From positions 124,001-188,000 of the forward strand of contig NZ_FNZK01000005.1 of NCBI RefSeq assembly GCF_900109225.1: a stretch of 64,000 nucleotides of DNA, in the 5' to 3' direction. Made by a program: the position numbers and the translations under genes. The notes below the pieces were generated by a model, which was given only the letters and a program-made list of their open reading frames with translations, made no database searches and was not told the origin of the DNA. Source of the stretch: Propionispira arboris (GTDB taxonomy: Bacteria > Bacillota > Negativicutes > Selenomonadales > Selenomonadaceae). Below, piece by piece: positions 16,169 through 60,654 of this stretch (positions within the stretch are counted from its first letter, which is position 1; the number at the start of each line of letters is the position of its first letter).

Positions 16169-16209
16169 TTCAGCACACAGCATCATTGAGACTCTCCTTT
16201 AAGTAAATT

Positions 16210-41609: not shown

Positions 41610-42995
41610 ATGGTAGCAGAGAAAGAAAAAGTATTTTTGTTGGCAGATGAAAGACAGGATAAACCTTTTGGGCTTTTTTTCCTTTATTGTGCGGCAAATA
41701 TGGGGATTCTTGGACTTGTATATGGTGCTATTGTATTAGGATTTAAATTAAGTTTTTTTCAGTCTGTATTAGTTACTATTTTAGGGTCTTTTTCTTATGG
41801 AATAGTAGGTCTAATGAGTCTCGCAGGAAAAGATACAGGAGCTGTGACTTTTGTGCTTTCACGTGCGTCTTTTGGCTTTAAAGGAAATCTTATACCGGCA
41901 ATTGCTGCTCTTATTGGACATGCGGGATGGCTGTCGATTAATGTTTGTACAGGAACGTTGACATTACTAGCTTTGTTTTTGACTCTGGGAATTCAATCAA
42001 CTCCGATGATCATGGGAGTGAGTTTATCAATTTTTATTGCATTGGTTCTTATTTCTGTTTTTTTCAGTCATGAAATGTTAGTGAAAATACAGACGGGATG
42101 TACGTATTTGTTTGGCTTTTTGACTTTGGTGATTCTATTCGTCATAATTCCAAAAACAAACTGGGCTGTTTTGTCTGCTATGCCGAGTGGTGATTGGTTG
42201 GGAAACTTTTTGCCGGCATTAGCTTTTGTTATGGCAGGAACCGGTATTGGCTGGACTAGTTATGCTGCGGATTATAGTTGTCATCAAGCACCCATGAATT
42301 CTTCAAGGAAAGTTGCTTGGGCTGTTACTTTAGGCGGTGTCGTTCCGTTAGTCTTAATGATTATGGTTGGAATATTACTTTCTACACAAGTGCCTGATTT
42401 GGCGAATTCAGCAAATCCAATTGAAGTTATAAAAGGTGCTTTACCCACACAATTAGCGATGGTATATTACATCACAGCAGTTGGGGGACTTACACCTCAA
42501 TGCTTTTTAGGACTGAAATCTTCTAAGCTTGTTTTAAAGGCAGCGAATCTTATTTTGAACGAAGCAATGATTTTTATTTTCCAGGCATTGGTCATTACGA
42601 TTATTCCAATTTATATCTTATTTGTAGCACAGGATTTTCAAGGAACTTTAGAAGGTTTTCTTGGCATTATTGGAAAGCTGTTAGCCGCATGGTCATCGGT
42701 ATTTCTAGTGGATTATCTGATGTTGCGCAAAAAACAGGGATATTCAGAAGAACTACTTAGTAATCCGGAAAAAAATAAAATTAATTATAAAGGGGTTATC
42801 AGCTGGATTGTTGGATTTGTAATAGGATTGTTATTTTCTAAGACATTTTTCTTTAATGGACCATTTTCTGCGGGGATTTTTGAGGGTAATAGTCTGAATG
42901 TATTGTTGACATTGATTATTAGTGGAACTTTATATTTCTTTTTGAATTTACATAATGGTGAGGACAGTACAGCTGACATTAGCATACAAAAATAA
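41610..42995 (+). CDS. NCS1-family permease (CodB/purine-cytosine type)
   Basis: The 461-residue membrane protein has about 12 helices and the NCS1 pattern (GAVTFVLSRASFGFKGNLIPA cited in part; WTSYAADYS). Members import cytosine, purines, uracil, hydantoins, allantoin or related ring compounds and nucleosides. In yegTUVW this position is held by the MFS nucleoside transporter YegT; the swap to NCS1 suggests a related but different substrate. The ribosome binding site is GAGGAGG. Confidence 0.9.
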   Translation: MVAEKEKVFLLADERQDKPFGLFFLYCAANMGILGLVYGAIVLGFKLSFFQSVLVTILGSFSYGIVGLMSLAGKDTGAVTFVLSRASFGFKGNLIPAIAALIGHAGWLSINVCTGTLTLLALFLTLGIQSTPMIMGVSLSIFIALVLISVFFSHEMLVKIQTGCTYLFGFLTLVILFVIIPKTNWAVLSAMPSGDWLGNFLPALAFVMAGTGIGWTSYAADYSCHQAPMNSSRKVAWAVTLGGVVPLVLMIMVGILLSTQVPDLANSANPIEVIKGALPTQLAMVYYITAVGGLTPQCFLGLKSSKLVLKAANLILNEAMIFIFQALVITIIPIYILFVAQDFQGTLEGFLGIIGKLLAAWSSVFLVDYLMLRKKQGYSEELLSNPEKNKINYKGVISWIVGFVIGLLFSKTFFFNGPFSAGIFEGNSLNVLLTLIISGTLYFFLNLHNGEDSTADISIQK

Positions 42996-43023
42996 TGGAA
43001 GAGAATAAAATGGAGAAAAGCAT

Positions 43024-43920
43024 ATGAAAAATAAAAAACTTGTTTCAAATAAGAAAATTTTAATTTTAGGTTCAGCGGTTATTGATGTTATTATTAATAT
43101 TGAACGTTTACCAAAAGCTGGAGAAGATATTACTGGTGTGCAAAAAGGTCAGAATGTTGGTGGATGTGCATACAATGTAGCTAAAATATTAAAACATCTT
43201 CAAATAAAACATGATTTATGTGTACCGGTAGGGAATGGTCCATATGCAGATATTATAAAAAGTGAATTATACAATCGTAATCAATCGATTTTGATAGAAG
43301 ATACTAGTGCAGATAATGGATATAGTTTGTCTTTAGTAGAGGCTGATGGAGAGAGAACTTTTATTACAGTAGATGGTATTGAAACTAAATGGTCATCTTC
43401 CTGGTTTGAAAATATTGATATACAGATATATGATTATATTTACATTTCAGGTTATGGGTTTCAAGACGCGAATGATAGTGGGGACGTTATTTTGTCATTT
43501 ATTCGGCATAAAAGAATGGATTGTCAGTTGATTCTTGACCCGGGACCACGTCTTATTGGGAAAAGATTTAAAGATGAAGTTTTAAAAATGAACACGATTC
43601 TTGAACTTAATGAGCAGGAAGCAAAAGCTTTGGCAGAAAATGAGGATATATTTTTGGCTGTAGAGCAGCTGTATGCTGTTACGCAAAATCCGATAATTGT
43701 AACAATGGGAAGCAAGGGGACTTTATGCTATACGTCGGGAAAATCCGAATTGGTTCCTGTACAAATAGTGAAAGCCATTGATACTATTGGTGCAGGAGAT
43801 TCACATACAGCCGCTTTTATTGCTGGAATTGCTGCAGGCTATGAATTGAGAGATGCCTGTGTATTAGCAAATGATATTGCATCTAGAGTTGTCCAACATG
43901 TTGGATGTTGTGTTCTGTAA
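43024..43920 (+). CDS. PfkB-family sugar/nucleoside kinase (YegV-like)
   Basis: The 298-residue kinase shows both PfkB signatures: GGCAYNVAKILKHL near residue 41 and the catalytic DTIGAGDSHTAAFIAG near 255, with Asp as base. It would phosphorylate ribose, a nucleoside or pseudouridine. It is the last gene of the GntR-controlled unit, 28 bases after the permease, with only a weak ribosome binding site (GGAG). Confidence 0.92.
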   Translation: MKNKKLVSNKKILILGSAVIDVIINIERLPKAGEDITGVQKGQNVGGCAYNVAKILKHLQIKHDLCVPVGNGPYADIIKSELYNRNQSILIEDTSADNGYSLSLVEADGERTFITVDGIETKWSSSWFENIDIQIYDYIYISGYGFQDANDSGDVILSFIRHKRMDCQLILDPGPRLIGKRFKDEVLKMNTILELNEQEAKALAENEDIFLAVEQLYAVTQNPIIVTMGSKGTLCYTSGKSELVPVQIVKAIDTIGAGDSHTAAFIAGIAAGYELRDACVLANDIASRVVQHVGCCVL

Positions 43921-45135: not shown

Positions 45136-46071
45136 TTACTGTGGCAAACGATACTTGCTGCGTTTGTCGGATGTCCCTTTAAACTGATGGAGCACTCGGT
45201 ATTGTGAAATACTAAGTTCTTCCCATTCTTTAAAAAGTTTAAACAGTGTTTGCGCTGAAGAAAAGCCAACAAGTTGGGCAATCTTTTCGATAGAGTAATT
45301 CGTATCGCATAAGTAATTTTTAGCGTAATTCAGTCGATATATGCTTAGGGTTTTACCGAAGCTTGTTCCAAAATATTTTTCAAAAAGTCGACTGATGTGG
45401 CGTGGGGTAACATGCAGCGCATTAGCTACATCAGTTAATGTAATGCTTTCGTTGTAATGTGCATGCATAAATTTAGTGATTTCAATTGCCATTGTTAAAT
45501 GAACCTGTTCTTTTTCGGTTGAAACTGGCGTGGGCGGAATGATATTGCGAAACGCATTAATTATAAATTCGAAATAATAATTGCGCATCATAAGTTGCCA
45601 GCCAAGGCTTTTGTATTGTATTTCTTCTTGTATTTTTGGAATCAACCCTCCAAATTGGCTCTGGTCTGCAGCTACAAAATATTCTCTTTTTTTGATGGTA
45701 TCGAAAATGGAATCCATAAACTCTTTTTCAAATTGGGAAGAATCTTGCTTATGAGTACTAATGCGCTCATGATAGTTGAACACCATAACAAAATATTGTT
45801 TTTGTACATTTGGCTCGTAAATGGAACCATGCTGTACTCCCGGTGCAATCAGCAGAAAGCGTTTTGGGGATAAAGCAACGATCCGGCTATTTACCCGAAT
45901 TTTTGAAATTCCCTCAAGAGCATAATAAATTTCATAATCACAATGATTATGAGAGAATTCTACAGCGCTGTTATCCAGAAGCTCAGTATAATTCACTTCA
46001 AAATAAAAACTAGACATGGGAATTTGCACTAAAAAAGGAAAGTATAATAATTTATTTGCCTGCCTATACAT
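45136..46071 (-). CDS. AraC-family regulator of the sugar/polyol locus
   Basis: The 311-residue protein has an N-terminal cupin-like sensing domain (HNHCDYEIYYALEG near residue 40) and two C-terminal helix-turn-helix units (LTDVANALHVTPRHISRLF and IEKIAQLVGFSSAQTLFKLF). It diverges from the GPH symporter and dehydrogenase genes and probably activates them in response to the sugar. The start is uncertain; ATG 46017 (MSSFYFEV) is an alternative 18 codons inside. Neither start has a clear ribosome binding site. Confidence 0.9.
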   Translation of the reverse strand: MYRQANKLLYFPFLVQIPMSSFYFEVNYTELLDNSAVEFSHNHCDYEIYYALEGISKIRVNSRIVALSPKRFLLIAPGVQHGSIYEPNVQKQYFVMVFNYHERISTHKQDSSQFEKEFMDSIFDTIKKREYFVAADQSQFGGLIPKIQEEIQYKSLGWQLMMRNYYFEFIINAFRNIIPPTPVSTEKEQVHLTMAIEITKFMHAHYNESITLTDVANALHVTPRHISRLFEKYFGTSFGKTLSIYRLNYAKNYLCDTNYSIEKIAQLVGFSSAQTLFKLFKEWEELSISQYRVLHQFKGTSDKRSKYRLPQ

Positions 46072-46523
46072 CTGATATATTCAACTCCATCCCATTTTTT
46101 TCGTATCCACAGAATATTTTTCCAACTTAATTAGTTGCAACTAATTAAGTTGGAAAAGGACTTACTTGTTGCTTAAAATGTCTGTTTCGACGATTGCAAT
46201 TTTTTCGGGGTAAGTTCATATGTAATTTATAGGATAATACAAGGATAATATTAATCAGATTATTCCAAATTTTTAAAATAATGTATATACGTTCTTTAAA
46301 AAAGACCTCTATATTATTATACCTATCTTTTTCAGATATTGTTAGAAAAATCTATTTAATTTAAAATAATAACAGAATAAAAAAATTGCAATGAAGTGAG
46401 GTGACATGGCAAACGCAGTATCAGCATCTCTTCGTCATAGAGAAATGTCTCAATCAATTATTTGCATCGAGCAAGTCCTCTGAATCCTTCATTCATAAAA
46501 TAATAAAATGGAGTTGGTGTAAT
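46072..46523. promoter_or_regulatory. Divergent control region of the AraC locus
   Basis: This 450-base A/T-rich region holds a 40-bp palindrome (46118-46157) and a direct repeat AGGATAATA at 46231-46239 and 46242-46250, a spacing of about one helix turn that suits an AraC-type activator. A short frame with its own ribosome-binding-like GAGGTG starts at ATG 46406 (24 residues) but is not convincing as a gene. Confidence 0.5.
46118..46157. promoter_or_regulatory. 40-bp perfect palindrome
   Basis: Two 20-base arms meet with no spacer: the left arm begins TTTTCCAACTTAATTAG and ends GTTG at 46137; the right arm, from 46138, is its exact complement. It lies just upstream of the AraC gene on its coding strand. 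It may be an operator for a dimeric regulator or a rare zero-loop terminator. Confidence 0.7.
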
Positions 46524-47972
46524 ATGGGAAAATCTCTGAATCTATTCGAAAAAAGCGCTCCCAACCCCGGTTTTTATAAGCTTGGCAGAAAAGAAATAGT
46601 AGGTTATTCGCTTGTCGATGGCGGGATGAATTTGGTTTTTCAATCACTGCTTATGTTTATTACCTTTTTTTACACGGATGTATATGGTCTGTCCGCCGCA
46701 GAAGTATCACTCTTATATTTTATCGCCAGAGGATGGGATCTCATCTGGGATCCCTTGATGGGCGTTATTGCTGAAAGAATGAATCCAAAAACAGGCAAGT
46801 ATAAACCATACCTTGCGTATGGCTCTATACCATTCGGCATTATTGCAATTCTAACATTTACAGTTCCCGAATTGGGACATGATGGGAAATTAGCTTGGGC
46901 TTATGTGACATATTTTCTATTGAATACATTATATACGTTCATCATTAATCCTTATATATCCTGTACTACCGTTATGACCGCCGACCCTGTACAAAGGACA
47001 AAACTAAATTCAGTCAGAATGACCTTTGCCCAGAGTGGCGGTGTGGTTGTTGCCCTGTTCATTCCGATCCTTTCAAAACTTTTCGGGCAGGGAGATACTG
47101 CGCTTGGCTATCAACTGACTATGGTGCTGCTTGTATGTATTACATGTTCCATCTTGTTTTATAGCTACACTACAGTGCATGAGCGCATTAAAATTAGATC
47201 CCATCTCGACCCCGTTACCTTAAAAAATTATATATATCAGATTACACATAATCAACCGGGAGTCATTCTTTTTTTGCTGTTTGTAGGTGCTTATGCTTTT
47301 TCAACGATCACATCTACAGCAGGTATTTATTATATGACTTATAACGTCAACAGACCGGATCTTGTGGCAATATTTAGTGTATTAAATGTTTTGCCATCTG
47401 TGATTTCCGTACCTTTTGTACCGCTACTGTTTCGGACCATACATAAGAAAAACACCGTTGCGCTAGGCTTTTTTTTTGGCGCTGTAGGATGTGCAGCCTT
47501 GTATGTAGTACCTTATTCTCAAATCTTCATGATCATGACCTGCAAAACAATCAGTGCCCTTGGCTATGGTTTATTAATGGGCAGCCTATGGTCCATCATC
47601 CCGGACGATGTTGAATATGCGGAATACAATACCGGTAAAAGATACCCGGCCATTGTGTACACGCTGATTACACTAGGATTAAAGGTATCCATGGCTGTCG
47701 GCGGAGTCATTCCCGCATGGATATTGGCAAGTGTCCGTTATGTTCCCAATATACAGCAGACTCAAGAAGCGAAAGATGGAATTTTATTCATGTCATCTGG
47801 TTTGCCGGCAATGGTGTGCATTGTGACACTCATTATCTTCTATCTTTTTTACTCTCTCACGGAAGACCGCGTTACCTCAATTATGGCTGAATTGGATATA
47901 CGTCATAAAAATACCCAGGGTGTCGCAAAATATGAACTGCTGGAGGATATGGAAGAAAATCCGCGGATATGA
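46524..47972 (+). CDS. GPH-family glycoside/sugar:cation symporter (first copy)
   Basis: The 482-residue membrane protein has about 12 helices and GPH features: EIVGYSLVDGGMNLVFQ at the start, WDLIWDPLMGVIAERMN near 70 with the conserved Asp, and TGKYKPYL in the loop between helices. It imports a glycoside, pentoside, hexuronide or polyol with H+ or Na+, without phosphorylating it. ATG 46524 has GGAG ten bases upstream. It heads the locus divergent from the AraC regulator. Confidence 0.92.
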   Translation: MGKSLNLFEKSAPNPGFYKLGRKEIVGYSLVDGGMNLVFQSLLMFITFFYTDVYGLSAAEVSLLYFIARGWDLIWDPLMGVIAERMNPKTGKYKPYLAYGSIPFGIIAILTFTVPELGHDGKLAWAYVTYFLLNTLYTFIINPYISCTTVMTADPVQRTKLNSVRMTFAQSGGVVVALFIPILSKLFGQGDTALGYQLTMVLLVCITCSILFYSYTTVHERIKIRSHLDPVTLKNYIYQITHNQPGVILFLLFVGAYAFSTITSTAGIYYMTYNVNRPDLVAIFSVLNVLPSVISVPFVPLLFRTIHKKNTVALGFFFGAVGCAALYVVPYSQIFMIMTCKTISALGYGLLMGSLWSIIPDDVEYAEYNTGKRYPAIVYTLITLGLKVSMAVGGVIPAWILASVRYVPNIQQTQEAKDGILFMSSGLPAMVCIVTLIIFYLFYSLTEDRVTSIMAELDIRHKNTQGVAKYELLEDMEENPRI

Positions 47973-48014
47973 GACTACATCAAAAAGAGAAAATGTGTGC
48001 TGATGTATTTCTCT

Positions 48015-48059
48015 GTCATTTAAGGCAGTAAACCGAAGTGGATGCCACAGCCAAATGAC
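48015..48059 (+). ncRNA. Candidate structured leader RNA
   Basis: Nested helices can form between the symporter and dehydrogenase genes: outer GTCATTT (48015-48021) with AAATGAC (48053-48059), middle GGC/GCC (48024-48026/48050-48052) and inner GTGG/CCAC around an ATG loop (48038-48048). No known riboswitch is recognised. It may be a processing or attenuation hairpin. Confidence 0.35.
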
Positions 48060-48127
48060 TGGCGATATTTATAGTGGTTTGTATTCAACCAGATATTTCT
48101 ATTCAACAAACAGAGGAGGTTTTTATT

Positions 48128-49186
48128 TTGAAAAGTGTTTCTGTTATTAAAGTCGGAAGTCTAAAGGATCCGAATGAAGCCACACGCGGAAAAGTGCAGG
48201 TAGTGGACATTCCCGAACAACTCATAGGTGACGAGGATGTTAAAATCAAAGTGGCTTATTGTGCCATCTGTGGTTCCGATCCGCATTTGGTAGAAAACAT
48301 TTTCGGGTGGGATGTTCCATTTGGAATAGGACACGAGGTTTCAGGCGTAATTATGGAATTGGGTAAAAACGCTACAAAGAAAGGGCTGAAGGTCGGTGAC
48401 CGCATCGCGGGTAATTTTCTAAAATTCTGCGGTACGTGCTATTATTGTCAAAATGGGCAGCAGCAGTTCTGTGAATACGGCAATGATTCTAATCACCCGG
48501 GTATGAGCGAATATATTGTCTGGCACGAATCCCAGGTTTATAAACTACCTGATGATGTAAGCCTGAAAATTGGCTGTTTGCTTGAACCGGTATCCATAGC
48601 AGTTCGAATTATGGATAAAATCGGGATGAAAATTGGGCAAAGGGTTGCCATTTGCGGAGGCGGACCGATTGGTTTGTTGGCAATACAGTCACTAAAAATG
48701 TATGGAGCAACCTCTCTGACACTGATTGAACCGATTTCAAATCGACGTGACTTCGCAGTGAAATATGGTGCTGACTATGTCATTGACCCTTTGACACAGG
48801 ATGTGGTAGAGGTTTCAATGTCACTGACCAACGGTCGTGGTTTTGATGTGGTAATCGACTGTTCCGGTTCCGTAAAAGCAGTGAATAATCTGCCCCAAAT
48901 TACTGCCAAAGGCGGCAAGCTGATTTATGCAGCCATGTATCCAAATACATTTGAAATGCCTCTTAACCTTTATCAATACTGTTATTTTAATGAGCTGACG
49001 ATTACTGGACTATATGTGGCGCCTTATGCGTTCCCAAGAGCATTGCAGTTACTGCCTAGAATGCAGCTTGAAGATTTTATTGCCAAAGTTTATCCGATTG
49101 ATCAGGTAGAGGAAGCTTTTGCTATGCAAGTAGAAGGAAAATACCCGAAGATTCTGATCCAATGTAATTCATTTGAAAAAGAATAA
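48128..49186 (+). CDS. Zinc-dependent medium-chain alcohol dehydrogenase (polyol type, copy 1)
   Basis: The 352-residue enzyme has catalytic zinc ligands in CAICGSD and GHE, a structural zinc lobe (FCGTCYYCQNGQQQFC) and the NAD site GGGPIGLLAIQ. It resembles sorbitol, threonine or idonate dehydrogenases and would oxidise a secondary alcohol to a ketone. TTG 48128 is eight bases after GAGGAGG. It shares the pattern MPLNLYQYCYF...PRALQLLPRMQL with the dehydrogenase at 52056, so the two are paralogues with possibly successive substrates. Confidence 0.9.
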   Translation: MKSVSVIKVGSLKDPNEATRGKVQVVDIPEQLIGDEDVKIKVAYCAICGSDPHLVENIFGWDVPFGIGHEVSGVIMELGKNATKKGLKVGDRIAGNFLKFCGTCYYCQNGQQQFCEYGNDSNHPGMSEYIVWHESQVYKLPDDVSLKIGCLLEPVSIAVRIMDKIGMKIGQRVAICGGGPIGLLAIQSLKMYGATSLTLIEPISNRRDFAVKYGADYVIDPLTQDVVEVSMSLTNGRGFDVVIDCSGSVKAVNNLPQITAKGGKLIYAAMYPNTFEMPLNLYQYCYFNELTITGLYVAPYAFPRALQLLPRMQLEDFIAKVYPIDQVEEAFAMQVEGKYPKILIQCNSFEKE

Positions 49187-49211
49187 ATATACAGTAAAGG
49201 AGAAAAATCAT

Positions 49212-50081
49212 ATGTATCAATATAATATAGACATTGAAATGGTAAAACAACTGGAAGAAAAAGCATTTAAAATAAGAAAAGATCTGTTGAATTTCATTTA
49301 CCGTATAGGCATGGGACATTTGGGAGGAGAACTTTCCATTGTGGATATGGCTGTAGCACTTTACTATAAATATATGAACTATGATCCGAAAAATCCAAAA
49401 TGGGAAGACCGTGATCGATTGATACTCAGCAAAGGGCATTGCAGCGAAACCTTATATACCATTTTTTCGGATATGGGATGCTATACAATGGACTACATGG
49501 TAGAGCATTTTGAAACGCTGAGTACCGCAAAATTTGGCATGCATTCCAACAGAAAATACGTACCGCAAATTGAGGCTTCGGCAGGTTCGCTGGGGCATGG
49601 TCTCCCGATCGCGCTGGGACTGGCACTGGGAGCGAGAAAACAAAAGAAAAACTGGAGGACCTTTGTCATCGTGGGAGACGGCGAATTGGATGAGGGAAGC
49701 AATTGGGAAGCGATCATGGCCGCCGGACATTACGAACTTGGCAATTTGGTTGCAGTTGTGGACAAAAACAAACTGCAGATGACCGGGCTCACTGCACAGG
49801 TTATGAATATAAATCCGCTGGATCAAAAACTTAAGGCATTCGGTTGGGATGTCATCAGCATTGATGGGAATGATATGTATGCGGTCTGCGAAGCATTACA
49901 ATCGCTTGCTCCGGCAGATCCGGTTTCGAGAAGAAAACCTATTTTTATTATCTCCAATACCATTAAAGGTAAGGGAGTTGATTTTATGGAAGGCAATGTA
50001 AAATGGCATGGCGGCGCTATTGCGAAAGAACAACTAGATGAAGCGCTGACCTCGGTGAACAAGAATAGGAAGGTGAGATAA
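49212..50081 (+). CDS. Transketolase, N-terminal subunit
   Basis: The 289-residue protein is the thiamine-diphosphate binding half of transketolase. It shows GHLGGELS with the catalytic histidine, SKGHCSETLY and the TPP motif GDGELDEGSNWE...NKLQMTG. The partner half follows two bases later. Split transketolases often serve special pathways rather than the core pentose-phosphate cycle. Start ATG 49212 behind AAAGGAG. Confidence 0.93.
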   Translation: MYQYNIDIEMVKQLEEKAFKIRKDLLNFIYRIGMGHLGGELSIVDMAVALYYKYMNYDPKNPKWEDRDRLILSKGHCSETLYTIFSDMGCYTMDYMVEHFETLSTAKFGMHSNRKYVPQIEASAGSLGHGLPIALGLALGARKQKKNWRTFVIVGDGELDEGSNWEAIMAAGHYELGNLVAVVDKNKLQMTGLTAQVMNINPLDQKLKAFGWDVISIDGNDMYAVCEALQSLAPADPVSRRKPIFIISNTIKGKGVDFMEGNVKWHGGAIAKEQLDEALTSVNKNRKVR

Positions 50082-50083
50082 CC

Positions 50084-51064
50084 ATGGCGGTAAAATCTAC
50101 TTTTGATTTTGATCAGATGTTATCAAATGCAAGAGAAGCATATGGTGAAGAATTGATGAAAATGGCAAATGATGGGCTTGATTTTGTATTTACCTACAGT
50201 GATAATGTGGCACCATCATCCAGCGCAGGAAAGTTTATCCAAAAATACCCCGATCGCTGCTTTAATTTTGGAATTGCAGAACCCAATCAGGTTGGTGCTT
50301 CGGCCGGTCTCGCGCTGTCAGGACAGACTGTGTTCGCCCAAGTGTTTGGACCATTTCTTCCATTGAGAGCGGCTGATCAGGTTCATACGGATATCGCGTA
50401 TAATGACGTCAACGTTCGTCTCATCGGCACCCATGCCGGCGTAACGGCGGGAGGTGGACCAACGCATAACTGTATTGCCGACCTTGCGCTATACCGTGCA
50501 ATTCCAAACCTTACGATTGTTGTGCCTGCAGATGCAGGACAGTGCTGTAAGGTGATCCGACAATCTATGTCATTCAAAGGACCAATGGTCATTCGTATTG
50601 ACCGTGGCGGCTCTCCGAATGTATATGCGGATACTAACTATGAATTTGAATTCGGCAAGGCAATTGAAACTGTACAGGGGACTGATTTAACTATTATTTC
50701 CGCGGGATCCAGTGTTTACTGGTCCATGATGGGGGCAAAATTGTTAAAAGAAAAACATGGAATTCATGCACGCGTCATTGATATGCATACAATCAAACCG
50801 CTAGATACTAATATGCTTTTAAAATGTGCAAAAGAAACTGGAAATATCGTAACAGTAGAAGAGCACTCTATTAATGGGGGACTTGGCGGTGCAGTTGCTG
50901 AATTTCTGCTGGAAGAAGGTTTCTGCGGTAAATTCAAGAGAATTGGTTTACCGGATGAATTTGCGGTACTTGGTGATCCGGATGAAGTATATAAGTACTA
51001 TGGAATGAATCCAGAGGGCATTGCAAGACAAATAGTAAAATTAATGAAAAAGCAAAATAAATGA
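50084..51064 (+). CDS. Transketolase, C-terminal subunit
   Basis: The 326-residue protein has the pyrimidine-binding domain and the C-terminal domain: FNFGIAEPNQVG with the catalytic Glu near 68, GTHAGVTAGGGPTHNC near 115 and VEEHSINGGLGG near 265. With the N-terminal subunit it transfers two-carbon units from a ketose to an aldose. No kinase is encoded nearby, so the donor ketose may be unphosphorylated or phosphorylated by distant enzymes. Confidence 0.93.
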   Translation: MAVKSTFDFDQMLSNAREAYGEELMKMANDGLDFVFTYSDNVAPSSSAGKFIQKYPDRCFNFGIAEPNQVGASAGLALSGQTVFAQVFGPFLPLRAADQVHTDIAYNDVNVRLIGTHAGVTAGGGPTHNCIADLALYRAIPNLTIVVPADAGQCCKVIRQSMSFKGPMVIRIDRGGSPNVYADTNYEFEFGKAIETVQGTDLTIISAGSSVYWSMMGAKLLKEKHGIHARVIDMHTIKPLDTNMLLKCAKETGNIVTVEEHSINGGLGGAVAEFLLEEGFCGKFKRIGLPDEFAVLGDPDEVYKYYGMNPEGIARQIVKLMKKQNK

Positions 51065-51135
51065 TATTTGTACAGAAACCTTTCCTCTATAAATCTTCAT
51101 TTATAAACCTATCATTAAAATTGGAGGTATGAATC

Positions 51136-51921
51136 ATGAATGAACAATTAAGTCGGTTCTCTATGGATTATTTTAGTTTAAAGGGAAAAACCGCCATTGT
51201 GACAGGGGCAAACCAGGGATTAGGTATGGCCTATGCGGTTGCATTTGCTAAGGCAGGTGCTGATTTATATATTCCTCACTTTACTGATGATATTCGTGAA
51301 ATTAAAGAATTGATTAACGCAGAGGGCAAAAAAGTTTCCTTTATTCAGGGCGATTTAACCGATCCAAATTACAGGAAGGAGGTAGTGGCTGGCTGTATCA
51401 GGGAATATGGAAAAATAGACGTGCTGGTAAATAACGCCGGGGTAAGTAAATTTGCGCATTTTACCGAATATCCGGATTCTGCATGGAAGCAATGCATTGA
51501 TATAGATTTAAATTCTGTTTACTATCTTAGCCATGAGATTGCTAATGTAATGATAAAACAGAAAAACGGTAAAATTATCAATATCGGTTCTGCACTTTCT
51601 TTTACAGCGGACAAAAAATGCCCACCTTATACCGTAGCAAAACATGGTGTTATAGGGATGACCAGAGTTTTTGCCAACGAGCTGGGAGAGTATAATATTC
51701 AGACCAATGCAATCTGCCCCGGATTTTTGGCAACGGAAGTTAATAAAGATCTGCGTGCAGACCCCAGCTTCTATAATAAAATTACCAAACGCATACCGAT
51801 GGAACGCTGGGGTGAACTCGATGATTTAATGGGTACAGCAGTATTTTTAGCGAGCAAGGCTTCTGATTATGTGAACGGATGGAATATCAGTATCGACGGC
51901 GGTTTTACCACCACTTTGTAA
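51136..51921 (+). CDS. Short-chain dehydrogenase/reductase (gluconate 5-dehydrogenase/KduD-like)
   Basis: The 261-residue SDR has the nucleotide loop TGANQGLGMAYA near residue 25, NNAG near 102, catalytic Ser in GSALSF near 155 and Tyr-x-x-x-Lys in YTVAKHG near 170. Similar enzymes interconvert sugar acids or polyols and their keto forms. ATG 51136 follows GGAGG at 13 bases. It works beside the polyol dehydrogenases and transketolase. Confidence 0.92.
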   Translation: MNEQLSRFSMDYFSLKGKTAIVTGANQGLGMAYAVAFAKAGADLYIPHFTDDIREIKELINAEGKKVSFIQGDLTDPNYRKEVVAGCIREYGKIDVLVNNAGVSKFAHFTEYPDSAWKQCIDIDLNSVYYLSHEIANVMIKQKNGKIINIGSALSFTADKKCPPYTVAKHGVIGMTRVFANELGEYNIQTNAICPGFLATEVNKDLRADPSFYNKITKRIPMERWGELDDLMGTAVFLASKASDYVNGWNISIDGGFTTTL

Positions 51922-52055
51922 ATGATAAACTAAAAATTCGTGTTGGTATTAATGATATGACTGATACTGGATTGAAGTTTGAAGATAATTTATAATCTAA
52001 AGAAAACGCACCCTATATTGATAATTATTCTATAATATTGAAAGGATGATATCCT

Positions 52056-53072
52056 ATGTCAACAATGAAACAGTTATGGTTTACTGCTAAAAATAAAGTT
52101 GCATTACGCAATGTGGAAATTCCAAAAGTAGAACGTAATCAGGTCAGAGTTAAAATCGCATATACTGCTTTATGCGCAACGGATATTCATCAAGTTTCAA
52201 TGGGGCTGTTAGGTGCCAAACCGCCAATGCCTTTGGGCCATGAAGCTTCCGGCGTGATTGAGGAACTTGGGGCAGGTACAGAAAAAAGTGGTTTAAAAAT
52301 TGGTGATAAGGTATGTCTTTATCCGGTGACGCATTGCGGAATTTGTCCTGCATGTACAAAAGGTCAACCGCAATATTGTGAAAATTCCCAAACAACCGGT
52401 GCTTTTGCTGAATACGTGGTTACAGATATCAGCGCGATATTTAAAATTCCAGACGATGCTAATTTGATGGCATATTGTTTAGTTGAACCGGCAAACTGTA
52501 CCGTCCGTGCGATGGACTTGGTAGGTATCAAACATGGCGCTTCGGTTCTCATTTCCGGCATTGGCGGAATAGGTTCAATTATGTTAAATATGATTCTATT
52601 GAGTGGCGGGGCTAAAATTACGGCTTCTGACCCGGTTGGTCCTAAACGACAATTGGCACTAGATATGGGGGCACAATATGTAATTGATCCGATGAATGAG
52701 AACCTTGTAGCGCGGGCCGCAGAAATCACAGATGGTTGTGGATTTGACTATGTATTTGAAATGTCGGGTTCCCCCCAAGCTGCTGAACCGACATTAAAAG
52801 TGTTGGCAAAATGCGGAACCATGGTTTATTTTGCAGTGTATCCGCCGCAATATACAATGCCTTTAAATTTATATGATTTATATATGAAAGAAGGCAGAAT
52901 TCAAACCGTGTTTACAACGACGACGATTATGCCGCGTACAATTAATTTAATTCCAAGATTGCAGATGGATAAGATTATCGGTAAAGTTATGCCACTCAGT
53001 GAAGCCGTTGAAAGCTTTGAAGTATTTAAAAAATCAATTTATCCTAAAATTTTATTAGATTGCAGCAAATAG
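52056..53072 (+). CDS. Zinc-dependent medium-chain alcohol dehydrogenase (polyol type, copy 2)
   Basis: The 338-residue enzyme has CALCATD-like catalytic zinc (LCATDIHQ), GHEASG, a structural zinc lobe (CGICPACTKGQPQYC) and the NAD site GIGGIGSIML. It is a paralogue of the enzyme at 48128 and probably oxidises a related alcohol. The 134-base gap before it contains TATAAT at 51990 but no confident -35. The ribosome binding site is AAAGG. Confidence 0.9.
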   Translation: MSTMKQLWFTAKNKVALRNVEIPKVERNQVRVKIAYTALCATDIHQVSMGLLGAKPPMPLGHEASGVIEELGAGTEKSGLKIGDKVCLYPVTHCGICPACTKGQPQYCENSQTTGAFAEYVVTDISAIFKIPDDANLMAYCLVEPANCTVRAMDLVGIKHGASVLISGIGGIGSIMLNMILLSGGAKITASDPVGPKRQLALDMGAQYVIDPMNENLVARAAEITDGCGFDYVFEMSGSPQAAEPTLKVLAKCGTMVYFAVYPPQYTMPLNLYDLYMKEGRIQTVFTTTTIMPRTINLIPRLQMDKIIGKVMPLSEAVESFEVFKKSIYPKILLDCSK

Positions 53073-53102
53073 TATATGTACAAGGATGGAGGGGAATAAT
53101 CC

Positions 53103-54490
53103 ATGTCCTTAATTAATAATATAGGACAGTCTAAAATTAAACTATCTCCATGGAAGAAACTTTCCTATGCAACTGGTGACTTTGCCAATAATTTCAGTTG
53201 GGCACTTGTCAGTTCCTATTTAATGTTTTTTTGGACAGATGTTGTGATGATTCCTGCTGCATTATGCGGAACATTTATGCTGGTTTCTAAACTATGGGAT
53301 GCAATACTTGATCTCGTGGTTGGCATTTTGGCTGATCATACAAAATCAAAATGGGGGCATTATCGGCCGTGGATTCTGTTTGCATGTATACCAATGTTGA
53401 TTGTAAATGTATTGTGTTTTACGACGTTGACGGGAGAATCGCTGATCATAAAGGCGTGTTATTCTGCTGCTTGCTATTTTATTTTAGTGACGTTGTATGC
53501 CTGTGTAAACAACCCATACAGTGCACTGCCGGCAGCATTGACACTTGATGGTGATACCCGATCAAGTTTGGCTAGTTACCGCATGACAGCTGCATTCGTC
53601 GCCACATTGGTTCTTTCACAAGCAATGCTTCCTTTAGTAAATTGGATGGGACAAGGCAATCCAGCAACTGGTTTTTTTTATGCCGCGTTTATTTTTTCAG
53701 CATTGGCATTTCCCTTTTATTTGTTTTGTTTTTTTAATACTAGGGAAGTCGTTGATGTTCCGACAGAAGAGTTTGATTTTCACAAATTAATGGATGCATT
53801 AAAAAAAATAGACCGGTTTGGATACTTCTGATTACCTTTGTTTTTTGGGGCTTTTATGAAGCATCGGTTGGTGTTGTCAAATTATATTATTTTACTTATT
53901 TTGTTGGTGATCAGTCATTGTTTGTTTTTAATGCCAGTTTATTGTATTTAGGACGAATTTTTGGAGCATTTTCTCTTTCAACATTGGTTGCTAAGGTCGA
54001 TAATAAACGTACTTTGCCGATGATTAGTTTTTTCGTCAGTGGCGTTTTGATGGTGATCATGACTTTTTTGCCCGTGCATACCCAAATAGGGCTTGATCTA
54101 TATAATTTTATGACATTCATTACTGGTATTGGTGGAGGATTGGGCTTGGCATCAATGTTCGGTATGGTACCAGATACGACGGAATATTCGCAACATAAAT
54201 CTCAGATTCGTGCAGCAGGATTTATTTCGTCATTCATCAATTTTGCCTTTAAAGTTGGAATGGCTATTTGTACGGCTGTGATTGGCTGGGTATTGGGATA
54301 CTTAGGATATGCTGCGAATATCATTCAAAGTCCAACGGTACTGAATGCGATTAATATTTGCATGAACATGGTTTGTGGTATTGTTTTACTTGTTGGTGGT
54401 TTTGCCATGATATTTTATAATTTAGATAAAAAGACCTATGCACACATGGTTGATGCATTAGAAAATACAAGGATAGAAAATAAGAAATAG
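53103..54490 (+). pseudogene. GPH-family symporter (second copy) split by a one-base frameshift
   Basis: Residues 1-242 form the N-terminal half of a GPH symporter (SYATGDFANNFSWALVSSYL, WDAILDLVVGILADHTKSKWGHYRPW in parts) and end at a stop after DRFGYF. In the next frame the protein continues without loss: NRPVWILLITFVFWGFYEAS, then the second half to 54490. The shift falls in an A8 run at 53801-53808; nine A would restore one frame of about 462 residues. It may be a true mutation, a sequencing error, or corrected by slippage on the A-run. Confidence 0.88.
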
Positions 54491-54526
54491 TTTCTTGAAA
54501 ATTAGCATTTGAGGGGGTTCTTTATA

Positions 54527-56473
54527 ATGAATAAATATCCACACGTATTCCAACCAATTAAGGTTCGCGGCTTAACCATCAAAAATCGAATTCAATTCAC
54601 GCCTATGGTTTGCTGTCTATCTAACGCCGAAGGCGAGGTAACCAATGAAATTGTTCAATTTTTAAGTAGCCAGGCCGCTACTGGAGTTGGCTATGTCACC
54701 ATTGGTGATACCCAAGTTGACCATGAACGCGCCATGTGTTTTTATGGAGAATTAAATGTTTTACATGACAAGTATATCACTGGACTATCTCTTTTAGCAG
54801 AAGAAGTGCATCGTTATGGTGCAAAACTTTCTATCGAACTTGCACATGCTGGTCGCGGCGGTGTTCCATCGATGAATGTCAAGCCTGGGTTTGCGCCTTC
54901 AAATGTTCCAATCCCAGGGTGTATGCAAGATTTGAAGGTAATGGATCGTGATGATATGGATTGGGTGGTCAAGCGTTTCTTCGAGTGTACAACCCGTGTA
55001 AGAAAGGCCGATTTTGATATGATCATGGTACACAGTGGTCACAATAATTTATTGGGGCAATTCCTTTCACCCGAAAGCAATTTCCGTACGGATGAATATG
55101 GGGGATCATTGGAAAACCGTATGCGGTTTCCACTAGAAATACTCAAGGCGATACGGCAAGCAGCTGGCGATAAAATGGTTTTAGAAATGCGTGTCAGCGG
55201 CGATGAAATGACTCGCAATGGTTTGCGTTTTGAAGAATGTATAGAATATGTGAAGCGCGCACAAGAATATATTGATATTGCACATTTTTCCTGTGGTAAT
55301 GTTTTTATGGCTGAAAGTGTGAAATATACTGCTCCGCTGTACTTGCAAGAACATATGCAGAATGTAAGATTTGCCGCAGCGGCAAAAAAAGTATTGCATA
55401 TTCCTGTTTCGGTAGTTGGTAATATTTTTTCGATGGCAGATGCGGAAGAAATCATTGCCTCGGGTAAGGCAGATATCGTTGGCATGTGCCGTTCGTTGAT
55501 GGCAGATCCAGAACTGCTTCATAAATCACAAAAAGGAGAAGAAGCGGACATTCGACCTTGCTTGCGATGTATGGATGGTTGTGGTCGAATCTTTCATGGT
55601 TATCCTGTCCGCTGTGCGGTCAATCCAGTAAATGGACGTGAATATCGTTATCGTAATATTCAGAAATCTGAAAAACCAAAAAAAATAGTTATTATCGGCG
55701 GTGGTCCTGCTGGTATGCAGGCAGCCCAGACGCTAATAAAACGTGGGCACGAAGTTATCCTTTATGAACAGGAAGGGCAATTGGGTGGATTACTTCATGA
55801 TGGCGGAGCGGTTACTTTCAAAAAATTGATGCGTGATTATGCGCAATGGGATATCCATACTACTATGAAATGTGGTGCAACAGTGAAGCTCAATACGAAA
55901 GTTACTCCGGAATTGATTATAGCTGAAAAAGCCGATGCGGTCATTTTCGCTACTGGTTCTACCTTTATCAAACCCAATATTCCGGGTATTGACGATAAAA
56001 ATGTAAAAATGCTTCGTAATGTAGAAAGAGAAAAGGAAACGGTCGGGCAAAAAATCGTAGTTTGCGGTGGTGGCTTATCTGGGGTGGAATGTGCAGTTAA
56101 CCTTGCTAAGCAGGGCAAAGATGTCAGCGTAGTTGACATGATTCCAGAATCGGATTTTTGTAAAGATATGTTCTATATCACTCGTATTGCGCTGTTTGAT
56201 GAAGTGAAGAAATATGGTGTTAGCTTTTTTGGCGATTATAAAATTATACGATTTACCTCTGAGGGCGTTGTAACTGCTGCCGAAAACGGAGAAGAAAGAG
56301 TATTTGAGGCCGATACCTGTATTATTGCAATGGGATTAAAATCCGAAAACAGTCTCGCTAAGGAACTACAGACTAAATTGTCTATTCCAACCTATATTGT
56401 AGGTGACTGTAATACAATAGGAACAGTAAGAAGTGCTAATTTTGATGCATTCAATATAGCAGTTGAGTTATAA
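54527..56473 (+). CDS. Old-yellow-enzyme/2,4-dienoyl-CoA-reductase-type flavoprotein (FadH-like)
   Basis: The 648-residue enzyme has an FMN-binding barrel (residues 1-350, with ELAHAGRGG and NFRTDEYGGSLENR), a [4Fe-4S] site CLRCMDGC with later CAVNP near 345-375, and a FAD/NAD(P) part (GGGPAGMQAA, then GGGLSGVECA). This family reduces C=C bonds next to a carbonyl, or demethylates. In this locus it might reduce an unsaturated keto intermediate. ATG 54527 has GAGGGGG at nine bases. Confidence 0.92.
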   Translation: MNKYPHVFQPIKVRGLTIKNRIQFTPMVCCLSNAEGEVTNEIVQFLSSQAATGVGYVTIGDTQVDHERAMCFYGELNVLHDKYITGLSLLAEEVHRYGAKLSIELAHAGRGGVPSMNVKPGFAPSNVPIPGCMQDLKVMDRDDMDWVVKRFFECTTRVRKADFDMIMVHSGHNNLLGQFLSPESNFRTDEYGGSLENRMRFPLEILKAIRQAAGDKMVLEMRVSGDEMTRNGLRFEECIEYVKRAQEYIDIAHFSCGNVFMAESVKYTAPLYLQEHMQNVRFAAAAKKVLHIPVSVVGNIFSMADAEEIIASGKADIVGMCRSLMADPELLHKSQKGEEADIRPCLRCMDGCGRIFHGYPVRCAVNPVNGREYRYRNIQKSEKPKKIVIIGGGPAGMQAAQTLIKRGHEVILYEQEGQLGGLLHDGGAVTFKKLMRDYAQWDIHTTMKCGATVKLNTKVTPELIIAEKADAVIFATGSTFIKPNIPGIDDKNVKMLRNVEREKETVGQKIVVCGGGLSGVECAVNLAKQGKDVSVVDMIPESDFCKDMFYITRIALFDEVKKYGVSFFGDYKIIRFTSEGVVTAAENGEERVFEADTCIIAMGLKSENSLAKELQTKLSIPTYIVGDCNTIGTVRSANFDAFNIAVEL

Positions 56474-56525: not shown

Positions 56526-56552
56526 CAAATATAGATATGAGGAGGTTTGAAA

Positions 56553-57647
56553 ATGAAAATAAGAGCTGCTCTAATAAAAAAAGCAAGAGAACCATTTCAA
56601 ATTGAAGAAGTAGACCTCGGTGTGCCATTGTCAAATGAAGTTATGGTGAAAATAGTTGCTTGCGGTGTTTGTCATACGGATGAAGTAGCGCAACAACAGT
56701 TTATTCCCGTTCCGTTACCTGCAGTCTTTGGACATGAAGGTTGTGGAATTATTCAAGAAATTGGTAGCGGGGTGTCTAATTTAAAAAAAGGAGATCATGT
56801 CTGTTTTTCTTTTGGTTTTTGCGGGGAATGCAGTAATTGTTTATCGGCAAAACCATTTATCTGTAAAGAATTTAATCATATTAATTTTGGGGGCGTGATG
56901 CCGGACGGCACTAAACGCTTATCACAAAACGGACAAAAAATATCTTCTTTTTTTGGACAGTCGGCTTTTGCAACCTACACGGTGGTCAATCAAAACAGTG
57001 TCATAAAAGTTGATCCAGATATTGATCTAGCCTTGACCGCTCCTTTGGGCTGTGGAATTCAAACTGGTGCTGGTACTATCTTAAATCGTTTGCATCCAGA
57101 ATTTTCCTCTTCAATTGTTGTATTTGGTTGTGGTACTGTTGGCATGAGTGCCATTATGGCTGCCAAAATAGTTGGTTGTGCAACGATTATTGCGGTTGGA
57201 GGTAATGATAACAGCTTAATACTTGCAAAAGAATTGGGTGCCACCCATATAATTAACCGCAAAGACTGTGATGATGTTGTCCGTAAAGTCAAAGAAATTA
57301 CCTCAGGTGGAGCTAATTATGCCATTGATACGAGTGGAGTTCCAGAATTTGTTCGCAAAGCACTTGCCTGTGTCGGCTATGGAGGAACAGCGGTCGTGTT
57401 AGGTGCAACTGGTGATTTGACAATTAATGTACAGAAGGAATTGATGGGAGATGGAAAGAGTTTAGTCGGTATTATAGAAGGCGATTCGATACCAAAACTT
57501 TTTATTCCAAAATTGTTGACATATTATAAGTCAGGAAAATTTCCTTTTGATAAGTTGATTGCTTATTACGATTTTAAAGATATTAATCAAGCTTTTGAAG
57601 ATTCACATAATGGTAAAGTCATTAAGGCAGTCTTGAAAATGTGTTAA
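56553..57647 (+). CDS. Zinc alcohol dehydrogenase, class III/aryl-alcohol type
   Basis: The 364-residue enzyme has CGVCHTDE and GHEGCGI catalytic-zinc motifs and a structural zinc lobe (CGECSNCLSAKPFIC). The long loop after it and the NAD site GCGTVGMSAI resemble aryl-alcohol, coniferyl or class III dehydrogenases, a different branch from the two polyol types above. It probably oxidises a primary alcohol or reduces an aldehyde. ATG 56553 has GAGGAGG seven bases upstream. It lies between two terminators and so is transcribed alone. Confidence 0.9.
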   Translation: MKIRAALIKKAREPFQIEEVDLGVPLSNEVMVKIVACGVCHTDEVAQQQFIPVPLPAVFGHEGCGIIQEIGSGVSNLKKGDHVCFSFGFCGECSNCLSAKPFICKEFNHINFGGVMPDGTKRLSQNGQKISSFFGQSAFATYTVVNQNSVIKVDPDIDLALTAPLGCGIQTGAGTILNRLHPEFSSSIVVFGCGTVGMSAIMAAKIVGCATIIAVGGNDNSLILAKELGATHIINRKDCDDVVRKVKEITSGGANYAIDTSGVPEFVRKALACVGYGGTAVVLGATGDLTINVQKELMGDGKSLVGIIEGDSIPKLFIPKLLTYYKSGKFPFDKLIAYYDFKDINQAFEDSHNGKVIKAVLKMC

Positions 57648-57866: not shown

Positions 57867-58823
57867 ATGAAAATGAAAGTAGTCATCGGTTCCAGAGCAC
57901 GTTCGCGAGCTCCGGAAATGATAAAACTTCTGGAAGATCAAGGTTATGAGCTGGTTATGAATCCTTTTGATCGCACGATGACAGAGAATGAGCTCATAGA
58001 AAAAATTCAGGGTGCAAGTGCCATGGTGGCTGGTAGTGATAAGGTGACCGAGAAAGTTTTAAAGGCCGGAATGCCATCACTTAAGGTCGTAGCTAAGCAA
58101 GGGGTTGGCTATAACAGCATCAATGTAGAAGCTGCAAAGAAGTTTGGCATTGCAGTTACGATCACCCCGGGAGCTAATAGTTGTGCCGTGGCAGATTTGA
58201 CTATGGGTCTTATACTTTCGTCAGCACGTAACATTCCAGCGATGGATCGGGCGATTCGCCGTGGAGAATGGTATCGCCATACAGGCTGTGAACTTGGAGG
58301 TAAGATTCTTGGAATTGTCGGTATGGGACACATCGGTGGTGAGGTTGCTAAAAGAGCTTATGCTTTTGGCATGAAGATTATCGCCTATGATGTTTATCCG
58401 CAGCAGGATTTTATCGACAAATATAGTGTATGTTATGTTGGAATTGATGAGCTTTTTAAAAAGGCTGATTTTATTTCACTGCATGCACCGGCAATTGCAT
58501 CGACAATTGGAATGGTAAATGCTGATCGGCTTAAGACGATGAAGCCGACTGCTTTTCTTATTAATGCAGCCCGCGGCGAGCTTGTCGTTGAACAGGATCT
58601 TTGTGACGCATTGCAAAATCATGTAATTGCTGGAGCAGCTCTCGATGTGTATACACAGGAGCCACCAGAAAAATCGGCACTTATGGATCAAGCGAACATC
58701 ACATTTACAGCGCATGCTGGAGCTTATACGCATGAAGCAATTATTGGAGCCGGTATCATGGCCGGTGAAGAAATTATTCGCGTTTTATCGGGTGAAAAAC
58801 CGAAATTCAATGTAGTGAAATAG
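57867..58823 (+). CDS. D-isomer-specific 2-hydroxyacid dehydrogenase
   Basis: The 318-residue enzyme has the NAD loop GIVGMGHIGGEVA near 148-160, the catalytic Arg in INAARGELV near 235, Glu in TQEPP near 262 and His in AHAG near 280. It reduces a 2-keto acid to the D-2-hydroxy acid. As first gene of the sigma-54 operon it may convert a 2-keto sugar acid phosphate, or act as a 2-ketogluconate-type reductase. ATG 57867 has AGGAGGG nine bases upstream; ATG 57873 is an alternative. Confidence 0.92.
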   Translation: MKMKVVIGSRARSRAPEMIKLLEDQGYELVMNPFDRTMTENELIEKIQGASAMVAGSDKVTEKVLKAGMPSLKVVAKQGVGYNSINVEAAKKFGIAVTITPGANSCAVADLTMGLILSSARNIPAMDRAIRRGEWYRHTGCELGGKILGIVGMGHIGGEVAKRAYAFGMKIIAYDVYPQQDFIDKYSVCYVGIDELFKKADFISLHAPAIASTIGMVNADRLKTMKPTAFLINAARGELVVEQDLCDALQNHVIAGAALDVYTQEPPEKSALMDQANITFTAHAGAYTHEAIIGAGIMAGEEIIRVLSGEKPKFNVVK

Positions 58824-58938
58824 AAAAACTTAGTATGTATTTTGTAAAAAAAGAGTGTTTTTATAAAATTTAACAGTAGGGTGGTTTCATCAAGTCTAGA
58901 ATTAGTGTGTCGAATATCGTTGTTTCATTGGTATACAA

Positions 58939-58964
58939 TTATCTATTCTAAACAGAATAGATAA
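58939..58964. promoter_or_regulatory. 11-bp inverted repeat before the aldolase gene
   Basis: TTATCTATTCT-AAAC-AGAATAGATAA is perfect and lies 22 bases before the aldolase start. It has no T-tail and could be an operator or a hairpin that tunes expression between the dehydrogenase and the aldolase. Confidence 0.55.
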
Positions 58965-58986
58965 ATTAAAAAGAGGAGTTTTTAAA

Positions 58987-59649: not shown

Positions 59650-59660
59650 AGGTGTTCAAC

Positions 59661-60089: not shown

Positions 60090-60110
60090 ATATTGAAAGG
60101 AATGAGAAAT

Positions 60111-60599: not shown

Positions 60600-60654
60600 G
60601 ATGAGTTGATTTTTATGAAAAAATTTATATATTTATATAATGGAGGTACAAACA

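Follow-up and report, generated by a model that had tools for sequence, protein, structure and literature searches.

A putative kinase-free ketol-transfer operon built around a split transketolase in Propionispira arboris

A 64-kb stretch of the Propionispira arboris genome (G000; 4.26 Mb in 40 contigs), comprising C19:124001–188000 and referred to here as the window, carries an operon in which a transketolase encoded as two subunits lies among dehydrogenases and symporters, with no kinase in the set. The question raised by this locus is what such a transketolase would act on. An initial annotation described an AraC regulator divergent from a GPH symporter, a zinc dehydrogenase, transketolase N and C subunits, a short-chain dehydrogenase (SDR), a second zinc dehydrogenase and a second GPH symporter, and all of these were found in that order and on those strands. 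It also offered the possibility that the transketolase uses a non-phosphorylated ketose made by the dehydrogenases. With a ketone as the donor, this is the best reading of the locus, at a probability of about 0.6: a kinase-free, desmolase-like operon in which an unphosphorylated ketone would give a C2 ketol unit to a sugar phosphate. Its direct basis is the gene content, the conservation of the module, how seldom a kinase of the searched families is linked, the kinship of the Zn-dehydrogenases to the steroid dehydrogenase DesC, and residue changes in the transketolase. Coordinates below are those of the window; other genomes and loci carry G and L numbers.

Transketolase, dehydrogenases and symporters

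The N-terminal, thiamine diphosphate (ThDP)-binding subunit of the transketolase (TKN, 49212–50081, forward strand, as are all operon genes) matches PF00456 and has relatives at 64–84% identity, and the C-terminal, pyrimidine-binding subunit (TKC, 50084–51064) matches PF02779/PF02780. Since the genome holds nine Transketolase_N matches, of which two lie in full-length frames (669 and 682 aa), the split enzyme is probably not the housekeeping one. Zn-dehydrogenase 1 (48074–49186) precedes the pair, and comparison with relatives suggests that its true start may be near 48128. Downstream of the pair are a KduD/IdnO-like SDR (51136–51921), scoring 343 bits against NF005390 (cut-off 369, not reached) and 38% identical to E. 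coli IdnO, and Zn-dehydrogenase 2 (52056–53072). The first GPH-family cation symporter (46521–47972, in an ORF opening with GTG at 46401) exceeds the TIGR00792 cut-off (343 versus 231 bits). The second is present as annotated but is split into two frames, a first piece matching PF13347 (53103–53831) and a second (53918–54490) that is 75% identical to L030; in L034 and L055 the same gene is a single ORF of 457 aa. The break, between 53831 and 53918, represents either a recent pseudogene or an assembly error.

Both Zn-dehydrogenases are DesC-like. Their best match in the PDB is 4OH1 (E 6.6e-64 and 1.7e-59), which leads the next structure by about 21 orders of magnitude for the first enzyme and about 18 for the second (next match, 2e-41). 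The PDB table labels 4OH1 as L-iditol 2-dehydrogenase, and it is the Clostridium scindens DesC (CsDesC), a 20-alpha-hydroxysteroid dehydrogenase (PMC13348027). Identity of the window enzymes to DesC is 33% and 37%, and the best match to DesC across 398 genomes of the phylum is 43%; at a threshold of 1e-75, CsDesC matched nothing in 119 phylum genomes. At E ≤ 1e-52 there were ten DesC-like genes in six of the 398 genomes. Seven are clustered with a split transketolase (G231 has three, the window two, and G261 and G187 one apiece). Of the remaining three, G153 and G336 have one gene each, and both carry a transketolase pair of similar type elsewhere in the genome; the last is in G261, beside an aldo-keto reductase. 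Five of the six DesC-carrying genomes are also the top five TKN genomes of the 398. When the window's own genome, the source of the query, is left out this co-occurrence is 4/4, with P 4.9e-9 if independent (7.4e-11 with it); as G153 and G336 are of one genus, the cases are not fully independent. A Zn-dehydrogenase tree, rooted on the E. coli enzymes and the third alcohol dehydrogenase of the operon (ADH3), shows CsDesC branching first in the group with the transketolase-linked genes (SH-aLRT 90, three members not being linked to a transketolase), in agreement with a tree from 2013 (PMC3735941).

The combination of a zinc enzyme and a KduD-like SDR is also seen in IdnD and IdnO, respectively, which work on the same carbon next to a CH2OH group; the Idn system differs in having no transketolase and an adjacent gluconate kinase. 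By analogy with IdnD/IdnO and DesC/DesE, we infer that the Zn-dehydrogenases and SDR of the operon act on one carbon next to CH2OH.

Among described systems, the operon would work most like steroid-17,20-desmolase, as encoded by desABCD of Clostridium scindens ATCC 35704 and by desEAB, where the ketol side chain is proposed to leave by transketolation (PMC3735941, PMC13348027). Shared features are a split transketolase, a DesC-like Zn-dehydrogenase, a Na+/melibiose-type symporter and the kinase-less operon. In the proposed parallel, a dehydrogenase forms or reverses the ketol, a split transketolase cleaves it and a GPH-type symporter takes in the substrate. The symporter likeness to DesD is at the family level, and is provided by two GPH/melibiose-family genes, one of them broken. 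Unlike the desmolase operons, the window has two DesC-like genes, a KduD-like SDR instead of DesE (structure 6OW4 is not among the best 60 of its 678 PDB matches), an AraC-type regulator, a flavoenzyme, a third alcohol dehydrogenase and different carriers. We do not file it as a desmolase because the SDR and regulator differ, its activity is predicted, and the likeness is one of gene content and of the DesC-like dehydrogenases; C. scindens is not among the loci from the best 80 transketolase relatives described below. The initial annotation had drawn a parallel with SqwGH of the sulfofructose transketolase pathway, where the transketolase acts on an unphosphorylated hexulose (PMC11659671). It noted that the isomerases of that pathway are missing, and no isomerase or sulfonate gene was recognised in the window operon. 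The desmolase system, which it did not name, has more of its genes in common with the operon.

The transketolase family and its accompanying dehydrogenases

TKN was compared with the genomes of 84,980 named species; of the 237 relatives matched, the best 80 were retained and yielded 79 loci. Examined in detail were 58 loci (55 of the 79, together with G045, G047 and the window), with TKN at 60% identity or above in 57; the remaining 24 of the 79, at 47% or less, served as background wherever a TKN–TKC pair was found. Among the kept loci, TKN identity steps down from 64% in L083 to 53% in L086, which is from a Tannerella metagenome-assembled genome (MAG), and then to 47% or less, and two loci found later (L150 and L151) have a similar pair at 52%. 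A separate search of 60 relatives of the window genome found TKN orthologues at 74–75% in two (G045 and G047), the next best being 48%. This clear gap in identity, at least 64% inside and at most 53% outside, sets off a distinct family. It is found in Clostridia, other anaerobes and two Bacilli; among the carriers are Clostridium ljungdahlii, C. carboxidivorans, C. drakei (two loci), C. magnum, C. thailandense and C. bovifaecis, as well as Petroclostridium, Lactonifactor longoviformis, Faecalicatena contorta, Sporobacter termitidis, Alkalibaculum and the Bacilli Paenibacillus validus and Halalkalibacter okhensis. Some MAGs are labelled Treponema, Synergistaceae or (three times) Planctomycetota, labels that may be binning errors. 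Plasmids gave no match by DNA search and 954 records matching TKC by protein search, all below 60%, and no relative was found in viral contigs.

A tree was built from 64 rows, each a TKN+TKC concatenation, by a quick method without bootstrap; the 27 sampled family rows (including L086) form one clade in it (SH-aLRT 99). E. coli AptAB sits among 32 other rows, split from the family by a branch with support 97; long branches include AptAB, L075_1 and L004.

A Zn-dehydrogenase and an SDR accompany the family transketolase in most loci. TKC is beside TKN in 56 of the 57. Counting window-type Zn-dehydrogenases at 45% identity or above and SDRs at 50% or above, on the same strand and within 3.5 kb, a Zn-dehydrogenase is found in 49 loci, an SDR in 44 and both dehydrogenase types in 38; for the 32 loci whose flanks each reach 3.5 kb or more, the figures are 32 for TKC, 29, 27 and 25. 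Gene order varies, with the SDR lying before or after, which argues for a functional association. A GPH symporter occurs within 6 kb in 20/57 loci (15/32 with full flanks), relatives of symporter 1 near a family transketolase being 38–71% identical. Where GPH genes are lacking, other transporters are seen: ten loci have RbsA-like ABC ATPase ORFs no more than 8.1 kb away (partners checked by Pfam in L076, L062 and L082), and there are TRAP binding proteins in L065 and L051, and an oligopeptide-type ABC system in L081.

The transketolase pairs were aligned to E. coli TktA, comparing 54 distinct family pairs with 44 other split pairs. His100, His261, Glu411 and His473 are conserved in all 54 family pairs. 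Arg358, Ser385, His461 and Arg520, which we take to be the residues that bind the substrate phosphate in the E. coli enzyme, are also retained throughout the family (position 358 as Arg in 44 and Lys in 10, the other three in all 54). In the 44 other pairs, position 358 is Arg in 33 and Lys in 4, and Ser385, His461 and Arg520 are kept in 36, 17 and 42 pairs, respectively. In the substrate loop, all 54 family pairs are one residue short at Asp469, a residue expected in a pentose-phosphate transketolase, while this occurs in only one of the 44 others, which have Leu (25), Asp (12), Ala (5), Glu (1) or the single gap at this column. Asp469 (Asp477 in yeast) recognises the hydroxyl that is the C4-OH of the ketose donor, and variants at this position accept aromatic aldehydes. 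Because the Asp469 position is lost and the phosphate residues are kept, the donor is probably not an ordinary ketose with the usual C4-OH, and the acceptor may still be a phosphate. A D469E variant, and a split transketolase that uses phenylacetaldehyde, are mentioned in PMC7661550.

The short loop extends to the outer relatives L086, L125 and L129, but not to L130, and the loops of L150 and L151 resemble it. The one gapped pair among the 44 others, L075_1 (6968–8778 of its locus), is the second pair of a rumen MAG and stands beside GPH2, ZnDH2 and ADH3 genes; the operon concerned (L075 2803–8778) contains two different split-transketolase pairs. His461 and Arg520 are gone as well in both L075_1 and L129, and L075_1 might be a ketol cleaver without a phosphate site.

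The following route would fit these features. A symporter would import an unphosphorylated molecule ending in -CHOH-CHOH-CH2OH, or its tertiary-carbinol equivalent, which the Zn-dehydrogenases and SDR would oxidise, or interconvert between epimers, to an alpha-ketol, R-C(OH)-CO-CH2OH. The split transketolase would remove C1–C2 as ThDP-bound glycolaldehyde and hand it to a sugar phosphate, for entry into central metabolism. The leftover aldehyde or ketone would pass to accessory enzymes, ADH3 and the flavoenzyme in this operon and an aldehyde:ferredoxin oxidoreductase in two relatives. Transport, the order of reactions, the acceptor and the terminal ketol are the parts of this scheme that we infer.

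Kinases and competing pathways

A conserved, always-linked kinase was looked for with FGGY, PfkB (two) and PfkA seeds in loci with a complete TKN–TKC pair (background loci >5 kb), and none was found in these families; ROK, GHMP, DhaK and other kinase families were outside the search. An FGGY kinase lies in the flank of one of 54 family loci, compared with 19 of 25 background split-transketolase loci. The statement in the initial annotation that no kinase is present holds for the gene set itself and broadly for the family, with qualifications. The window has a PfkB gene (43024–43920) in another operon, and PfkA is linked in 5/54 family loci (L039, L055, L061, L072 and L102). The only further PfkB matches in family loci are in L082 (25%; ribokinase-type by NCBIfam, under the cut-off) and in L090 (23–26%, 9.5 kb away). 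The only family FGGY gene, in L072, is above the glycerol kinase cut-offs and lies after PfkA. When 60 distinct neighbouring proteins were annotated (among them two background proteins and ten belonging to the outer relatives L125, L129 and L130), kinases were recognised in L082, L072 and the background locus L031; the neighbours in L040 are housekeeping genes.

Several observations weigh against a kinase-free, desmolase-like route. A glycerol kinase is linked in L072, and in L082 the dehydrogenases give way to an isomerase-like gene and a PfkB kinase. An SDR was not seen within the limits in 13/57 loci, nor a Zn-dehydrogenase in 8/57, some of these cases being contig ends. Support for the DesC grouping (90) is below the 95 mark and the outgroup branches are long. 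In the transketolase, AptAB-type enzymes are likewise without Asp469 (Leu in E. coli AptB), Ser385 and Arg520 are kept in most other split enzymes as well, and the retained phosphate quartet would equally permit a phosphorylated donor made by an unlinked kinase.

The last point leads to the alternative that survives best, although we consider it unlikely: an ordinary sugar or polyol pathway with an unlinked kinase, in which an aldose would be isomerised via the alditol, the ketulose phosphorylated, and the transketolase act as AptAB does on apulose-4-phosphate. The retained phosphate residues fit this, as do the RbsA-like genes of ten loci and the L082 arrangement, where the isomerase-like gene is 47% identical to that of L032. 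The background loci L031, L032 and L033 each have an FGGY kinase and an isomerase-like gene, L031 and L032 also RbsA/RbsC, which is presumably the apulose-phosphate layout. Growth on apiose is described for E. coli strains that have AplK–AptAB and, instead of ApsI, two putative oxidoreductases (PMC13001218), a dehydrogenase pair proposed to replace the isomerase; both stand-ins are annotated as SDRs in strain SE15. The AptAB/AplK/ApsI pathway shares with the family a split transketolase in a catabolic operon and a non-conserved Asp469. Against it stand the contrast in linked FGGY kinases given above, identities of 39% to AptA and 36% to AptB of E. coli, and the separate clade. In addition, the family loop is shortened rather than substituted, and an isomerase was found only in L082. 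Membership of the AptAB pathway was rejected: the window locus has no FGGY kinase, its family shows one in 54 loci (a glycerol kinase by score), and the quick tree places the transketolase in a different clade.

A kinase-free tetritol/tetrulose or apiose route, which is a special case of the preferred ketol transfer from an unphosphorylated ketone, is less probable still. Threitol, erythritol or apiitol would be oxidised to erythrulose or apulose and used directly by the transketolase, with release of glycolaldehyde or dihydroxyacetone. Such a gene set would be required, RbsA-like ABC genes are near some loci, L082 has its isomerase-like gene, and the L072 glycerol kinase, after PfkA, would take dihydroxyacetone. 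That kinase is one case in 54, however, and the flavoenzyme, aldehyde:ferredoxin oxidoreductase, UbiD and corrinoid methyltransferase of some relatives would be left unexplained.

A true steroid-17,20-desmolase operon acting on corticosteroids is very improbable, as the DesC-like Zn-dehydrogenases, GPH symporters (as DesD), split transketolase and BaiCD-like flavoenzyme (PMC3735941) are offset by the modest identities to DesC, the KduD-like SDR (DesE is not among the best 60 of its 678 PDB matches), carriers that include acetogenic clostridia, two Bacilli and many MAGs with no evident steroid diet, and an AraC-type regulator where LysR-type genes adjoin the published operons (PMC12876203).

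Operon boundaries, accessory genes and possible substrates

The operon is longer than first described. Nine genes in the same direction lie between the divergent AraC-type gene and a 220-bp gap, with intergenic spacings of 3 to 135 bp, the break in GPH symporter 2 excepted. The initial annotation ended at 54490, but two further genes continue to 57647. An old-yellow-enzyme/FadH-type flavoenzyme (54509–56473) starts 19 bp after GPH symporter 2; it scores 462 bits against the BaiCD model NF041087, below the cut-off of 825, and matches PDB 6qkg (NCR) with E 1e-69. ADH3 (56547–57647), a Zn-alcohol dehydrogenase of the class III/NDMA type (TIGR03989, 268 bits, below the cut-off of 440), begins 74 bp after the flavoenzyme. 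The annotated left end, 46118, is one end of a perfect 40-bp palindrome (46118–46157) in the gap between regulator and symporter, a candidate operator. Its arm is 20 bp, whereas no arm exceeded 14 bp in a scan of 16 other non-empty AraC gaps, and no other copy of the 16-bp half-site occurs in the window genome with up to one mismatch allowed. The AraC-type regulator (45136–46071, reverse strand) matches PF12833 with 68 bits, and PF02311 at its cut-off. AraC-like matches at 30% or more to it occur within 6 kb in 29/57 family loci, some covering the DNA-binding part only, and in 17/32 loci with full flanks. Promoter and terminator matches in the window are near chance (51 found versus 43.9 expected, and 12 versus 9.6), and no tRNA was found in its 64 kb.

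The adjacent genes were treated as separate operons. Upstream of the regulator (41610–43920) are a permease, NCS1-like by ORF reading, and the PfkB kinase, perhaps a nucleoside operon. Downstream (57867–62288), ORF reading suggests D-2-hydroxyacid dehydrogenase-like, KDPG aldolase-like and PTS-like genes, apparently a sugar-acid operon.

The flavoenzyme and ADH3 are each found in 6/57 family loci (six and four of the 32 with full flanks). Flavoenzyme homologues of 33–73% occur in L029, L030, L051, L062 and L102, and ADH3 homologues of 50–73% in L030, L062, L075, L081 and L102, both being present beside the transketolase in the window, L030, L062 and L102. At 1e-180 the flavoenzyme was found only in G000 among the 398 phylum genomes.

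Other accessory genes, all in a minority of loci, give hints of the substrate. An aldehyde:ferredoxin oxidoreductase gene immediately follows the module in L039, another adjoins TKC in L125, and a UbiD gene is in L065. A corrinoid protein and a URO-D methyltransferase occur together in L030 (between GPH2 and ADH3) and in L061 (after PfkA), with 63% identity between the two URO-D proteins. A search with two seeds for each found the corrinoid protein in 2/54 family loci (L030, L061) and URO-D in 4/54, adding L045 and L078 at 23–29%, and neither in the 25 other split-transketolase loci. Corrinoid and URO-D-like genes are also near the transketolases of L125, L150 and L151. In the last two (L150 9012–17992, L151 6769–16500), which are of one genus and whose genomes encode a DesC-like dehydrogenase elsewhere, the pair stands beside URO-D-type genes, corrinoid-like proteins and, by ORF reading, a pterin-binding methyltransferase. 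A URO-D Pfam match lies within 10 kb of four of five family-type transketolases (12.6 kb in G231) versus 0/12 other split ones (fragments below 100 bits excluded), but the five test genomes (G047, G231, G153, G336 and C. magnum) were picked after the association was noticed, and three of them hold 12 to 15 URO-D matches, making chance not negligible. No URO-D gene was found in G000. The association is weaker than it first appeared.

Three further features of family loci were observed. A metallo-beta-lactamase-fold lactonase, by ORF reading, recurs in L058 (499–1413), L049 (1938–2750), L051 (2022–3071), L065 (384–1199) and L090 (18098–18847), with a carboxymuconolactone-decarboxylase-like ORF alongside in L049, L051 and L065. 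In L061 of Clostridium magnum (15451–18526), two phage-integrase-family recombinases lie between the methyltransferase genes and ZnDH2–GPH2, suggesting mobility of part of the cluster. In L129, the HGD-D and BcrAD-type neighbours are insufficient grounds for naming a benzoyl-CoA reductase.

The initial annotation proposed a polyol, deoxy sugar or sugar acid as the substrate. This is not established, since the nearest Zn-dehydrogenase structure is steroid-acting and the aldehyde:ferredoxin oxidoreductase, corrinoid methyltransferase and UbiD of some relatives hint at methoxylated plant compounds. The flavoenzyme with ADH3 in the window, L030, L062 and L102 likewise speaks for plant aromatics; the GPH and ABC sugar transporters, the isomerase of L082 and the glycerol kinase of L072 hint at a sugar. 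A sugar, branched sugar, short polyol or sugar acid is a tentative choice, at somewhat less than even odds. Some other compound outside these classes is a lesser possibility, a non-sugar plant aromatic or phenylpropanoid-type alcohol is rather doubtful, and a steroid is highly unlikely. In a specific and improbable version, the operon would trim the glycerol-type side chain of plant phenylpropanoids (e.g., lignin arylglycerols) or similar aromatic alcohols under anoxic conditions. Ar-CHOH-CHOH-CH2OH would be oxidised to the ketol, and the transketolase would free Ar-CHO and pass the C2 unit to sugar phosphates. The aromatic part would fall to the flavoenzyme and the alcohol dehydrogenase, joined in relatives by aldehyde:ferredoxin oxidoreductase, UbiD and corrinoid methyltransferases. 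If true, transketolation would be a general anaerobic means of C–C cleavage, with the steroid desmolase as one offshoot.

The route was initially called undescribed. A 2013 paper (PMC3735941) had already reported that other anaerobes carry desC-like genes next to those for transketolase subunits and a Na+/melibiose transporter; our literature search, with most subscription papers outside it, found no paper assigning a function to the gene set. What emerges is a family of transketolases that come with dehydrogenases of their own and for the most part lack a linked kinase, in genomes labelled as several phyla (many of them MAGs, whose labels may err). The family, the module and the residue marker can now be used in the hunt for a substrate. 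The family may also be the reservoir from which the gut enzyme converting glucocorticoids to androgens was drawn and, if the preferred reading is true, desmolase-type chemistry would be a wider catabolic strategy of anaerobes and not a steroid curiosity.

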